The position numbers were made by a program, and so were the translations under genes. A stretch of 39,592 nt of DNA from Solirubrobacterales bacterium. Lineage in GTDB: Bacteria > Actinomycetota > Thermoleophilia > Solirubrobacterales > Solirubrobacteraceae. Positions 26,687 to 36,972 of this stretch are shown piece after piece. Within the stretch, counting starts at the first letter, position 1; the number at the start of each line of letters is the position of its first letter. Below the pieces are notes generated by a model. The model was given only the letters and a program-made list of their open reading frames with translations, was not told the DNA's origin and made no database searches. The stretch lies in assembly GCA_025964355.1 (NCBI GenBank), contig JAOPZB010000210.1, positions 1 through 39,592 of the forward strand, given 5' to 3'.

Positions 26687-26810
26687 TGGAACGGCGCTCC
26701 TTGCGTGCGCTGACGTCGACGGCTCCCCGCGGCGCGCCAGTTTACGCACAGTGCGCCGCGATTTGCGTGCCACACCGTGCGGCGACGCGCTCGCCGCCCC
26801 GTTAACGACG

Positions 26811-26825
26811 AAAACCCCCTGGGGG
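26811..26825 (-). terminator. Candidate intrinsic terminator downstream of ssb (CCCC-CAG-GGGG-TTTT)
   Basis: Minus strand CCCCCAGGGGGTTTT, perfect GC stem followed by four T. Confidence 0.45.
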
Positions 26826-26905
26826 CAGCGACGCGGCGGCGACGCTCTGGGCGTCCCCGCCGCCGGTCCGTGGCGACTGATCGGACCTCGCTGCCAGCCT
26901 TGCGC

Positions 26906-27316
26906 CTAGAAGACGGACTCCTCGGAATCCGAACCCGCGCCGACCCCGACGAGCTCGCCGTCGTCCGCGGCACGGTCACCCGGAGTGTCCAGGAACTGGA
27001 CGGTGTCGGCGACGATGCTGACGGCCTGGCGCTTCTGCTGATCTGTCGTCTCCCACTCGCGCCACTCGAGGCGTCCGTCGATCGCGACTCGGCTTCCCTT
27101 GCGCATGTAGGTCCCCACGCTCTCGCCCGAGGCGCCGTAGACGCTGACGTCGAAGTAGTTCGGGCGCTCGTGATAGTCGCCCTCGGCGTCGCGACGGCTC
27201 CCGTTGCACGCGATTCGCAGAGCGCACACGCTCGTTCCAGACGGCAGCGCCCGCAACTCGGGGTCACGGGTCAGACGTCCTATGAGCACAACACGGTTGA
27301 TGCTTGAGTAGGGCAT
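26906..27316 (-). CDS. Single-stranded DNA-binding protein (SSB, OB fold)
   Basis: INRVVLIGRLTRDPELRALPSGTSVCALRIACN...NYFDVSVYGASGESVGTYMRKGSRVAIDGRLEWREWETTDQQKRQAVSIVADTVQFLD. Confidence 0.95.
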   Translation of the reverse strand: MPYSSINRVVLIGRLTRDPELRALPSGTSVCALRIACNGSRRDAEGDYHERPNYFDVSVYGASGESVGTYMRKGSRVAIDGRLEWREWETTDQQKRQAVSIVADTVQFLDTPGDRAADDGELVGVGAGSDSEESVF

Positions 27317-27360: not shown

Positions 27361-28095
27361 CTACGCATCGCCTGGGACGGTTCTCTCAGGCGACGCCGGC
27401 GAGCGCTCGGCCGTGGCTGCCGCGAGCGGGAGGACGATTATCGCCTCGCCGGCGTCGGCCTTGGCGATCGCCCGGCCGAGAGCATGCTCGACCTCGGGCG
27501 CCGCCAGATAGAGCACGCCCTCTACAAGACGGCACCGGGCCCAGGCTCGGCAGATCTCAGCCAGGCGCCGCGGTGACTTGACCGTCAGCTCGACCTCTAC
27601 GGCGATCGGCAGCCGCGCTTGCGGCCCTCTGGGCCAGAGGACGAGGTCTGGCCGATGCAGCAGCGGGCCGCCGTCGGGCGCGTTGCCCAAACGGGCGCTG
27701 GCCAGTGCGGCGCCGGCGAGGCGCTCGTCGCGGCGCAGCTCGCGCTCGCCTACGACGCGGTGATCCTGATAGCAGCGCTCCAACGCGGAGGCCACGCGCA
27801 CGCAGGCGATCGCATGTGGCGCGTTTGCGACGCTGATTCGACATGGCTCGAGTCCCTGCAAGCCGGACGCTCGCAGACCCGCTCGCGTGACGGTGAACAG
27901 CGCCGGCTCGCCTGCCAACGGACGCCGGCGGGTCAACTGCCGGTCACGCTCGGCGGCCAGCAGGCGCGAGCGCGCTGACGCGAGCGTAAAACGCCGGCGG
28001 TCGGCGAGCGCCTGGTCGGTGACGGCACCCATGCGCGCCGTCCATTGCAGGATCTCCACTCGCTCGTGCGAGTACGTGTTGTCTGCTTGGACCAT
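27361..28095 (-). CDS. Replication-relaxation-like family protein (winged HTH plus PD-(D/E)xK-like region)
   Basis: N-terminal wHTH-like MVQADNTYSHERVEILQWTARMGAVTDQALADRRRFTLASARSRLLAAERDRQLTRRRP; C-terminal RPDLVLWPRGPQARLPIAVEVELTVKSPRRLAEICRAW. ATG 28095 has AAGGAGG 5 nt upstream. Confidence 0.65.
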   Translation of the reverse strand: MVQADNTYSHERVEILQWTARMGAVTDQALADRRRFTLASARSRLLAAERDRQLTRRRPLAGEPALFTVTRAGLRASGLQGLEPCRISVANAPHAIACVRVASALERCYQDHRVVGERELRRDERLAGAALASARLGNAPDGGPLLHRPDLVLWPRGPQARLPIAVEVELTVKSPRRLAEICRAWARCRLVEGVLYLAAPEVEHALGRAIAKADAGEAIIVLPLAAATAERSPASPERTVPGDA

Positions 28096-28173
28096 CGGTC
28101 CTCCTTGGTCGTGTGTGTCCATGACTGACCGGGGTTCGCCCGGTTGCTCGTTCGATGCAGTCGAGGCTGTTGC

Positions 28174-29796
28174 TCAGCGGACCTGTAGCGGCGAGAGGAC
28201 GCGCCCGATCGCGACGCCGCCGCCACCGCCGAGCACGATCACCGCCGCCGACCCGGGATCCAGGGTTCTGACCTCGTTGGGATCGAGGATCGGCTCGCTG
28301 GTGCGCGTGCGCGTCGTTCGTCCGTCGCTGTGGCGGGCGACCTTCCAGGCCCCTCTTGATCCGGCGACGCTCGCGATGAGCTCTGCCGAGGCAGGGACCA
28401 CCTGGCGGTGTGCGATCAGCACGGTGAGGTTGCCCATCACCTGCTCGAGCAGCCGCTCCCTGCCTGGCGGTCGCAGATCGGACAGCTCCTGCGTGCCGAG
28501 GAGCAGAGACAGCCCCGCGGACCGCGCGCGTCCGAAGAGCCGCACCACATGCTCGGCAGAGACCGCCGAGAACTCGTCGATTACGACAAGGGTCGGCACC
28601 GGTCGTCCCTGCAGGCTCGCCACGGTGGTCTGGAGGTCCTGGACGATTGCGGCGCCGAGGATCTGCGTGAGCAGTGGCCGGCTATCGGATTGGAGGTTGA
28701 AGTAGACGACCGCACGCGCTCGCGTCGCGCCGAGGAGATCGAACCGCTCTGCAGCGGAGGCCTGCGGATCCAGCCAGGGCCCGACGTCGGACTCGGTGAG
28801 GATCGCCAGACGATCGCGTACTCCCGCCAGGTCGCTCCGCTGGCGGGTCGTGAGCGAATCAAGGTAGGCGTGGGTGGCGGCCGCGTGTGACTCGGGAAGA
28901 GTCCTTGCGAGCGTCTCCAGCCTGTCCGGGTCCAGATGCTCGACGATCGCACAGAGGCTGACCTCGATCGCGTTCTCGCGCAGAGCGCGAACCACGTGAC
29001 CTAGATAGCGCTGCGCCTGGCGCTGGTAGTGAGGCTCGGTGAAGCGCTCGCCGGCAAGCGCCTTGTCAGCGATCTCCGTCTCACCTCCGCAGGCGTAGGG
29101 GTTGTACACGGACGGGCCACCGGGAGTCCACTCGATGAACGGTCTGCCCGCGATGCTCGCCGCGAGACGCAGCTGCTCGCGCATGTCGCAATCGCCCTTC
29201 GGATCGACGATGACAGCACCCATCCCCTGCTCGATGGCCCGCGTGGCGAGCAATGTCTGGGTGACCGTCTTGCCGGAGCCGGTCGCCCCGACGACGAGCA
29301 TGTGCCGGCCGCCACCTTCGCCAGCGAACGGAATCGAGATGGCGCGACCGCGTTCGTCGGCGCCTAGGATCAAGCGGCCGGCGATCCGGCAGGCGTCCGC
29401 TCGACGGGTGCCGCGAGGGTGAAGGTCCACGCCCGCGAACGACGCGCGAAGCAATGAAAGCGGTCCACGGCGGCGAGCGGCGACTCGGGCCAGATCGGCC
29501 CCTGCTGCGATGTCTTCCCGATGCCAGCGCCGCCCGACTTTCGTCGCCGAGAGTCCGGCGAGCATGGCTGCGAGCGTCCAGCTCCCGAGGCTTGCCCGCA
29601 ACAGAAGCAGCGGAACGACGGACGTGGCCGCCCAGCTCCAGTGCAGCTCCCGGGAGCGCAACATTCGTGCAACCGCCATGCCGACCACCAGGCCGAGCAC
29701 GCAGTGAAACGTCGTGTCCAACACCCATCGGGCTAACTGCCCGATGGGCGCGTCCGGTGATGCCGCCGCTTGGGAGAACGGGTTCGATGAGCGCAT
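28174..29796 (-). CDS. VirD4/TraG-type IV secretion coupling ATPase-like protein (FtsK/HerA superfamily)
   Basis: Two N-terminal TM segments, GRHMLVVGATGSGKTVTQTLLATRAIEQGMGAVIVDPKGD (Walker A), VPTLVVIDEFSAVSAEHVVRLFGRARSAGLSLLLGTQELSDL (Walker B and TraG-like motif); GAAAGGA upstream of ATG. Confidence 0.88.
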   Translation of the reverse strand: MRSSNPFSQAAASPDAPIGQLARWVLDTTFHCVLGLVVGMAVARMLRSRELHWSWAATSVVPLLLLRASLGSWTLAAMLAGLSATKVGRRWHREDIAAGADLARVAARRRGPLSLLRASFAGVDLHPRGTRRADACRIAGRLILGADERGRAISIPFAGEGGGRHMLVVGATGSGKTVTQTLLATRAIEQGMGAVIVDPKGDCDMREQLRLAASIAGRPFIEWTPGGPSVYNPYACGGETEIADKALAGERFTEPHYQRQAQRYLGHVVRALRENAIEVSLCAIVEHLDPDRLETLARTLPESHAAATHAYLDSLTTRQRSDLAGVRDRLAILTESDVGPWLDPQASAAERFDLLGATRARAVVYFNLQSDSRPLLTQILGAAIVQDLQTTVASLQGRPVPTLVVIDEFSAVSAEHVVRLFGRARSAGLSLLLGTQELSDLRPPGRERLLEQVMGNLTVLIAHRQVVPASAELIASVAGSRGAWKVARHSDGRTTRTRTSEPILDPNEVRTLDPGSAAVIVLGGGGGVAIGRVLSPLQVR

Positions 29797-29843
29797 TGCG
29801 CGTGTCCTTTCTGCGGATCTGCCCTCGCGGACCGATCGCTGTA

Positions 29844-29861
29844 GGCCGGCGACGGCCGGCC
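29844..29861. repeat. Inverted repeat H1: GGCCGG-N6-CCGGCC
   Basis: Read directly from sequence. Confidence 0.85.
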
Positions 29862-29876
29862 GTGGTCTTTAACGGG

Positions 29877-29904
29877 CTACGGCCGACCCGGAGGTCAGCC
29901 GTAG
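29877..29904. repeat. Inverted repeat H2: CTACGGC-c-GACC-CGGA-GGTC-a-GCCGTAG (11 bp, one mismatch, tetraloop)
   Basis: Read directly from sequence. Confidence 0.9.
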
Positions 29905-29912
29905 TGGTCTCG

Positions 29913-29929
29913 CCGAGCGTTTGGCTCGG
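29913..29929. repeat. Inverted repeat H3: CCGAGC-GTTTG-GCTCGG
   Basis: Read directly from sequence. Confidence 0.88.
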
Positions 29930-29941
29930 TCAAGTTTGCAG

Positions 29942-29966
29942 GCGGCCGGGCGCTGCTTCCGGCCGC
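29942..29966. repeat. Inverted repeat H4: GCGGCCGG-N9-CCGGCCGC
   Basis: Read directly from sequence. Confidence 0.9.
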
Positions 29967-30070
29967 TCGAGTTTCACGTCAGCCGGCAGCCGACCCCCCA
30001 CGCGTCGAGCAGCCGGCGAGCGCTCTGATGTGCCGCGAGCTTGGGACGCAGGCCGGACGGCGCGGCGGCA

Positions 30071-30090
30071 CCGTCGATGACCTCCGACGG
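30071..30090. repeat. Inverted repeat H5: CCGTCG-N8-CGACGG, adjacent to stop of the 30092 gene
   Basis: Read directly from sequence. Confidence 0.75.
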
Positions 30091-30091
30091 C

Positions 30092-31075
30092 TCACGTCAG
30101 TTCCACCTCACGGGGGCTGACTCCAAGCCCGCGACGTGCGATCAGCGCGAGCACGTCGCTGTGAACCCACGGCGTCGGCATGGCCTGGCCCGCCTCGGCG
30201 AGCAGCCCCAGGCGGCGGGCGAGCCAGCTCGTCTCGCCGCTCTCGTTGCCTTTGCGGTCGCGCTTGACGCGCCCGCAGCGGATCGCGATCTCGCTCATGC
30301 TGAGGTGCTGCTGCTCGATCCTGGCGAGCGTAGCTTCTCGCAGCGCCTTGTTGAGCACGATCGGGCTGTTCCGTACGCGTGTCAGCTCCCCGCGCAGGAC
30401 GCTCGTCGATACGTCGGGATCGTCCGCGTGCCGCGCGAGCATACGCAGCGTGAGTCCACAGATCGGCTCATAGCGCTCGAAGCTGGCGACCGCCTCGCGC
30501 ACGCTGATGACCGTTGCGCTCCCGTCGGCCCGTGAACGCCGCCATCGCAGCTCGGGTATCGACATGCTCGTCTGGATTCGCTGCAGCCCGTAGCGATTCC
30601 CGGATTCGTCAATAGGCTCGGAGTCGGTGAGCAGCGCAGCGGCCGCGAGTTGCCTCTCTTCCTCCTCGGCGAACGGCACCGTGCGTGCGTCCTGGGCCGT
30701 GAGGGATCGGCAACGGTACGGGGTTTCACTTGCATGGCCGATGTAGTGACGCGTTAGGAGCACGGCGTTCTCGGCGGGCTCGTCTGCTGCCAGATGGGCG
30801 ATGAGGCGACGGTCTCCCCTGGTTGCGGCGTCTCTGTCCACGACGAGAGCGCTTCCGGCTGCGCCCGGCCTTGCCACGACCTCCCTCGCGCCACCAGTCG
30901 AGTCGATGTAGCGGCCGAGGACGCGGCTTCGGTGCCGACCGGCGCGGCGCTGTGGGGGTAGTCGGTGAGCACTGCGCTCGGGGACGCGACGTCGACGGGA
31001 GATTCGGCGCGCTTGCGAGGGACTGGAGGAGAGGGATGAGGTCATGGCTGGCTCCTGGCCGGTTCTGAGGGACAT
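30092..31075 (-). CDS. Hypothetical protein of the T4CP/replication-relaxation island
   Basis: 327-aa ORF, basic N-terminus, charged body, C-terminal HTH-like segment (HLSMSEIAIRCGRVKRDRKGNESGETSWLARRLGLLAEAG). Start uncertain (ATG 31075 or internal MTSS). No family recognised. Confidence 0.6.
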   Translation of the reverse strand: MSLRTGQEPAMTSSLSSSPSQARRISRRRRVPERSAHRLPPQRRAGRHRSRVLGRYIDSTGGAREVVARPGAAGSALVVDRDAATRGDRRLIAHLAADEPAENAVLLTRHYIGHASETPYRCRSLTAQDARTVPFAEEEERQLAAAALLTDSEPIDESGNRYGLQRIQTSMSIPELRWRRSRADGSATVISVREAVASFERYEPICGLTLRMLARHADDPDVSTSVLRGELTRVRNSPIVLNKALREATLARIEQQHLSMSEIAIRCGRVKRDRKGNESGETSWLARRLGLLAEAGQAMPTPWVHSDVLALIARRGLGVSPREVELT

Positions 31076-36400: not shown

Positions 36401-36436
36401 CGCACAACGAAGCCTAGAGGTTGCCAGGCATGTTTA

Positions 36437-36460
36437 CCTAGTCGATGATGGTCGACTAGG
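36437..36460. repeat. Perfect inverted repeat CCTAGTCGA-N6-TCGACTAGG
   Basis: 9-bp arms, 6-nt spacer TGATGG, in the cupin/VOC intergenic region. Confidence 0.9.
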
Positions 36461-36486
36461 CCTTGCGCTGACGGCGCAGGGCCACG

Positions 36487-36972
36487 TCAGCCGGAGCGCC
36501 TGCTGGCGCGTTCGTTGATCTCCTGAGGTGAGAGGCGCTCGGTGCGCTTGCTGAGCATCCACTGGTGCCCGAAGGGATCTCGCAGCCGCCCGCCACGCTC
36601 ACCGTAGAACTGGTCGGCCAGCTCATAGACCACTTCGGCGCCGGCTGCGACGGCGCGGTTCCAGGCGGCGTCGACGTCCTCCCAATAGGTGGCCATGATT
36701 GCCGTCACTACGCAGTCGAGTGAATCCGGTGACATGGCTGGTCCGCCATCCGCCGCGTCGTCGGTGAGCATGACTACCGAGTCACCGATGCGAATCTCGG
36801 AATGGATCAGCTCACCGCCGGGACCGGTGAACCGCTCGCCGATCTCCTGCGCGGCAAACGCCCTGGCGTAGAAGTCAATCGCGGCACCGCCGTCCCGGAC
36901 GACCAAACGAGGCGTGACGGTGTGAAGGTGCTCCGGGACCGACGTGACCGGCTCGGTGGGATTGTTCGACAC
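36487..36972 (-). CDS. VOC (glyoxalase/PhnB-like) family protein
   Basis: HTVTPRLVVRDGGAAIDFYARAFAAQEIGERFTGPGGELIHSEIRIGDSVVMLTDD...AWNRAVAAGAEVVYELADQFYGERGGRLRDPFGHQWMLSKRTE. GTG 36972 proposed; longer start in track unlikely. Confidence 0.88.
   Translation of the reverse strand: MSNNPTEPVTSVPEHLHTVTPRLVVRDGGAAIDFYARAFAAQEIGERFTGPGGELIHSEIRIGDSVVMLTDDAADGGPAMSPDSLDCVVTAIMATYWEDVDAAWNRAVAAGAEVVYELADQFYGERGGRLRDPFGHQWMLSKRTERLSPQEINERASRRSG

Follow-up and report, generated by a model that had tools for sequence, protein, structure and literature searches.

A hairpin array upstream of a coupling-ATPase gene in a Solirubrobacterales bacterium reads as a conserved structured RNA leader with a terminator-like hairpin

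We analysed a 39,592-nt stretch of DNA from a Solirubrobacterales bacterium (contig JAOPZB010000210.1; the whole stretch is called the window) and found that a hairpin array between two of its genes is genuine and appears to form a conserved, structured RNA leader of a known kind that Rfam does not contain, in all likelihood a fairly ordinary RNA control region. The RNA would be the minus-strand 5' leader of a VirD4/TraD-type coupling ATPase, probably of an operon encoding the ATPase, a relaxase-like protein and a single-strand DNA-binding protein (SSB). We read it, with slightly better than even confidence, as a structured intercistronic RNA with a terminator-like hairpin that polymerase must read through, that is, an attenuator or a partial terminator. 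An initial annotation of the sequence had offered three functions for the array: an oriT-like processing region, a structured non-coding RNA or a 5' leader of the ATPase. Synteny, double compensatory changes, coding-strand folding and the position of the hairpins near a strong ribosome-binding site argue for the latter two; the oriT-like function fared less well.

All five hairpins of the initial annotation were found where it had placed them, upstream of what is indeed a VirD4/TraD-type ATPase (Table 1). The short tags reported with them were also located: GTGGTCT at 29862-29868 and 29904-29910 (spacing 42 nt), CAAGTTT at 29931-29937 and CGAGTTT at 29968-29974. The hairpin-then-tag layout described on the plus strand held for its elements but not for its orientation. 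Because both flanking genes lie on the minus strand, the array is to be read on that strand, where the tags stand 5' of the hairpins (AGACCAC-H2, AGACCAC-H1 and AAACTTGA-H3), and a gap between two minus-strand genes makes the hairpins, as we read them, part of the 5' leader of the ATPase. On the plus strand H1 reads GGCCGGC-GACG-GCCGGCC, and H2 has 12 bp with one A-C mismatch that becomes a U-G pair in the minus-strand stem CUACGGCUGACC-UCCG-GGUCGGCCGUAG. Several relatives carry the motif beside H3 as GAACTTGAC, ATCTTGAC or AGCTTGAC.

Table 1 Hairpins, signals and neighbouring genes of the leader region
Feature	Position in the window	Strand	Description
SSB	26906-27316	-	single-strand DNA-binding protein; the apparent operon ends with this gene
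MOB_C/replication-relaxation-like relaxase candidate	27361-28122	-	winged helix and RPD...EVELTVK motif; next gene after the ATPase
VirD4/TraD-type coupling ATPase	28174-29796	-	downstream of the leader
Ribosome-binding site	29805-29812	-	AGAAAGGA; near-invariant across leaders as GAAAGGAG
H1	29844-29861	-	GGCCGGC-CGTC-GCCGGCC, 7 bp; between H2 and the ribosome-binding site
Tail 3' of H2	29867-29876	-	CCCGTTAAAG in the window; CTCGTTAACC in relatives
H2	29877-29904	-	perfect 12-bp stem, UCCG loop, one U-G pair; terminator-like
H3	29913-29929	-	CCGAGC-CAAAC-GCTCGG, 6 bp
AACTTGAC motif	29929-29936	-	immediately 5' of H3
H4	29942-29966	-	8 bp; as far as seen, in this genome only
H5	30071-30090	-	6 bp, just past the stop codon of the upstream gene; weak, conservation not established
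Upstream gene	30092-31075	-	327 aa, conserved C-terminal stretch SEIAIRCGRVKRD...GETSWLARRLGL

The gene downstream of the leader encodes a VirD4/TraD coupling protein with a P-loop motor domain and a TraG/TraD C-terminal region; it matched PF12696, PF10412 and PF02534 above cut-off and resembles TrwB and DotL in the PDB. The protein encoded upstream had no Pfam match at E<=10, and its C-terminus carries an invariant SEIAxxCGxxKxDxxG...GETSWLARR pattern. Elsewhere in the window, positions 36407-36572 form another strongly structured intergenic spot, with CTAGTCGA-CCATCA-TCGACTAG behind a glyoxalase gene.

Perfect hairpins of at least 6 bp were counted with H2 left out, as it is not perfect on the plus strand; the stretch held 4, against a mean of 0.89 in dinucleotide shuffles (p = 0.005 for hairpin number and p = 0.001 for paired bases). 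This crude count alone is not decisive: the window is GC-rich, and four such hairpins occur in a few further tiles as well. When tiles were folded with pairs restricted to within 40 nt, the minus-strand tile 29767-29930 had the lowest z-score among the 642 tiles of the window, ordinary tiles having a mean z of -0.16. The initial annotation had proposed comparing the folding energy with that of shuffled sequence, and in this comparison the leader stood far apart: the 164-nt leader in register gave z = -5.9 on the minus strand versus -3.7 on the plus strand. The full 295-nt gap was less extreme (-3.1 and -1.5, respectively), since its upstream part, with H5 and the TGCCGC/GCGGCA pair that had been listed as a weaker element, is ordinary and contributes little to folding.

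Of the 24 same-genus genomes, 22 contained ATPase matches, most of these with about 50-76% identity to the window copy. At these loci the order upstream gene, ATPase, 253-aa gene, SSB and MaoC was largely kept, so that the locus looks vertically inherited and chromosomal, and an orthologue of the upstream gene lies directly upstream at every same-genus locus with a closely related ATPase. Most relatives have a response-regulator-like gene (PF00486, PF00072) between the upstream gene and the hairpins, which is missing from this position in the window, G013, G009 and G012; its product in L041 and other relatives combines Trans_reg_C with a weak receiver domain.

When the gap was searched as DNA against 101 relatives, it was recovered whole in none of them; beyond the own genome the matches were short (25-82 nt) and scattered, so the conservation is structural and not at the level of sequence. 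The ATPase leaders of relatives mostly consist of strong hairpin arrays that end near a strong ribosome-binding site (GAAAGGAG). Fifteen of 23 such leaders had z < -2, and the mean z of the 23 was -2.84 on the coding strand versus -2.17 on the reverse complement (Wilcoxon p = 0.0013). They took most of the top ranks among the 86 intergenic leaders of the loci examined; the leaders of G009, G011 and G029 showed little structure by z-score. No Rfam 15 family matched the leader at gathering or relaxed thresholds, and the best sub-threshold match, ASpks (E = 0.25), was taken as chance.

Eight leaders picked for a common H2-linker-H1 layout (the window, G004, G013, G023, G007, G008, G010 and G015) were aligned with MAFFT without structure, and the counts describe that subset: 94.6% of the cells in H2-linker-H1 were paired, and 11 of 19 pairs had changed on both sides. 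The covariation score of 0.483 compared with 0.196 (SD 0.034) for shuffles, none of 500 scoring as high, and it fell to 0.04-0.12 when the pairing partners were slid. RNAalifold recovered the same structure unaided. The preference of the stems for the coding strand showed in G-U over A-C by only 12 to 5 (p = 0.07). The initial annotation had named compensatory changes and conservation in relatives as the check on the array; these double changes were found, and they indicate that the leader is a structured RNA under selection.

H2 is a stable, GC-rich, short-loop hairpin of the kind found in intrinsic terminators, with -21.5 kcal/mol, a 12-bp stem and a UCCG loop. Its tail is TTTCTCGTT in G008 and TTTCTGCGTT in G015, versus the U-poor CCCGTTAAAG in the window. 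The tail is degenerate in the window. About half the relatives have hairpins that lack a tail of this kind; in G002, G003, G014, G019, G020 and G021 the hairpins come without CGTT. A covariance model of H2-linker-H1 found a single strong site in the own genome, namely the leader (77 bits; next match, E = 0.23). The weaker matches in relatives of the family and order were GC-rich hairpins, mostly with NNCGTT tails. Among 22 H2-model matches in related genomes, 14 start 0-36 nt past an open frame's stop codon; four others were unreadable in register. Outside the leaders, a model of H2 plus its tail gave two good matches in the same genus, one in a convergent intergenic region (G003) and one 26 nt past a stop codon (G012); weaker matches lay inside genes and were put down to chance. 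In the window, a hairpin behind SSB (26774-26905, minus strand) has the tail TTTTCGTCGTTAAC, so that CGTTAAC follows this hairpin too. The gap between SSB and MaoC is hairpin-rich in several relatives too. A general rule of a hairpin plus CGTT after stop codons had few cases among 29 hairpins behind genes at the same-genus loci, so the terminator reading is drawn mainly from the related-genome matches, the SSB end and the two same-genus matches. Judged by its sequence, H2 together with the conserved tail CTCGTTAACC has the look of an intrinsic terminator. The earlier view that simple terminators do not explain the array was therefore half right: H2 with this tail is terminator-like and has look-alikes just past stop codons.

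Between H2 and the ATPase start codon there are 49-81 nt, largely taken by H1, and a promoter scan of this interval for sigma-70-type sites gave no promoter-like match, so the ATPase message would have to be read through H2. Transcription from upstream would pass H4, H3, then H2 with its CGTT tail, and then H1. H2 most likely halts a fraction of the transcripts, which would keep expression of the module low or conditional. H1, just 5' of an accessible Shine-Dalgarno sequence, may protect the 5' end and keep the ribosome-binding site open. As in attenuators, a terminator-like hairpin lies within the leader of the gene to be controlled; the difference is that no conserved antiterminator pairing and no leader peptide were found here. 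The mutually exclusive antiterminator or sequestering pairing of an attenuator or riboswitch was not seen: an alternative pairing of the H2 5' arm was significant in only 2 of the 8 leaders and is not conserved, and the ribosome-binding site was free. Regulation at H2 is for this reason something we infer. Two further candidates were rejected. An upstream open reading frame (ATGCAGCAC...) considered as a leader peptide lacks its ATG in the window and G004 and showed no ribosome-binding site, and a pairing of UUGAC (5' of H3) with GUUAA (3' of H2) fits some leaders by eye and fails in G004 and G023.

The foremost alternative, a minority reading that we nevertheless take seriously, is that the hairpin cluster is simply an unregulated terminator of the upstream transcription unit and that the ATPase has its own undetected promoter overlapping or just past the hairpins. 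It stays strong because intrinsic termination at hairpin clusters is common and often does without a U-tail (Gupta and Pal 2021, PMC8355165), and because Streptomyces has structured 3' ends that are poor in U (PMC8269248); the strong hairpins at the SSB/MaoC boundary point the same way. Like the described clusters, the array consists of several stable hairpins in a row between genes and would need no U-tail. It differs in that it nears the ribosome-binding site of the next gene, and in that 188 nt separate H2 of the window from the stop codon of the upstream gene. The separate promoter that this alternative calls for would have almost no room in G007, G008 and G010, where the 53 nt from H2 to the ATG are mostly H1, and the sigma-70-type scan found none.

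The loop (CAAAC) and flanks of H3 are kept in relatives, and three of its stem pairs are swapped on both sides, in a weaker comparison whose six rows include two from one genome. In the ATPase leader of G010 (L052:7688-7866) the H3-type unit forms a tandem array of about seven hairpin copies of 25-27 nt. G021 has a different repeat of 65 nt in three copies (L053:7462-7660), and no tandem repeat was found in the window. The linkers AACTTGAC and GCAGCACC recur in the leaders; a linker pattern, CTYGTTAACCACC, searched in the own genome with mismatches, was not specific. It is conceivable, though unlikely, that repeatable H3-type modules set or switch terminator readthrough, thereby controlling a coupling-ATPase/relaxase-like module kept on the chromosome, which would make the leader a new conserved regulatory RNA. 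More doubtful is a riboregulator that responds to a protein or a ligand, such as an antitermination site in which a protein binds the H3-type hairpins; the regulator encoded 5' of the leader in relatives might be that protein. The kept H3 loop and flanks, the roughly seven-fold amplification and the recurring linkers are consistent with it, but there is neither a conserved alternative pairing nor an Rfam match, and the regulator gene is absent beside the leader in the window, G013, G009 and G012.

The array could also be a DNA element, an oriT or a relaxase-binding region; the relaxase would be the MOB_C-like candidate whose gene directly follows the ATPase gene. Orthologues of this 253-aa protein share invariant RPD and E-V-E-L...K residues, and its confident structure model has an N-terminal winged helix. 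Profile matches were weak (PF13814 in one orthologue, E = 0.0016; only NF041423 for the window protein, E = 0.028), and a fold search gave no match below 0.001. The candidate misses Pfam through divergence, and it stands near a VirD4-type ATPase and SSB in a genome where no VirB4 was found. Because the partner gene is such a candidate, oriT function is possible, yet it is less supported than the RNA leader and is not the best account; we judge it improbable. In its favour, a coupling ATPase is paired with a relaxase-like gene, among plasmid-encoded relatives the one nearest to the ATPase (31% identity) is on a plasmid typed MOBC, and the repeats bound by TraX, the MOB_C relaxase of pAD1, lie 70-120 bp from nic (PMC12857230). 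The likeness to MOB_C mobilisation regions (pAD1 TraX, CloDF13 MobB/MobC) thus lies in a VirD4-type ATPase and MOB_C-like candidate pair with repeats nearby, but here the locus is chromosomal, syntenic and inherited in place across the genus, with no known nic site. VirB4 (TIGR00929) had no match in the own genome (83.7% complete) and none over cut-off in the 24 same-genus genomes, which are incomplete. Moreover, the stems fold better as coding-strand RNA, and the kept tail is also found at terminators. Chance palindromes in 70% GC sequence are hardly credible: a few other window tiles hold as many short perfect hairpins, but this stretch has the lowest z-score of the 642 tiles, and covariation in relatives refutes the chance reading.

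The structured leader is a covariation-supported RNA element that Rfam lacks and that goes with a single gene module. Were it an attenuator, it would offer a clean handle on how DNA-transfer-type genes, apparently without a secretion channel, are kept and controlled chromosomally across the genus. If no more than a terminator cluster, it would illustrate how terminator hairpins can keep their structure as their sequence changes.
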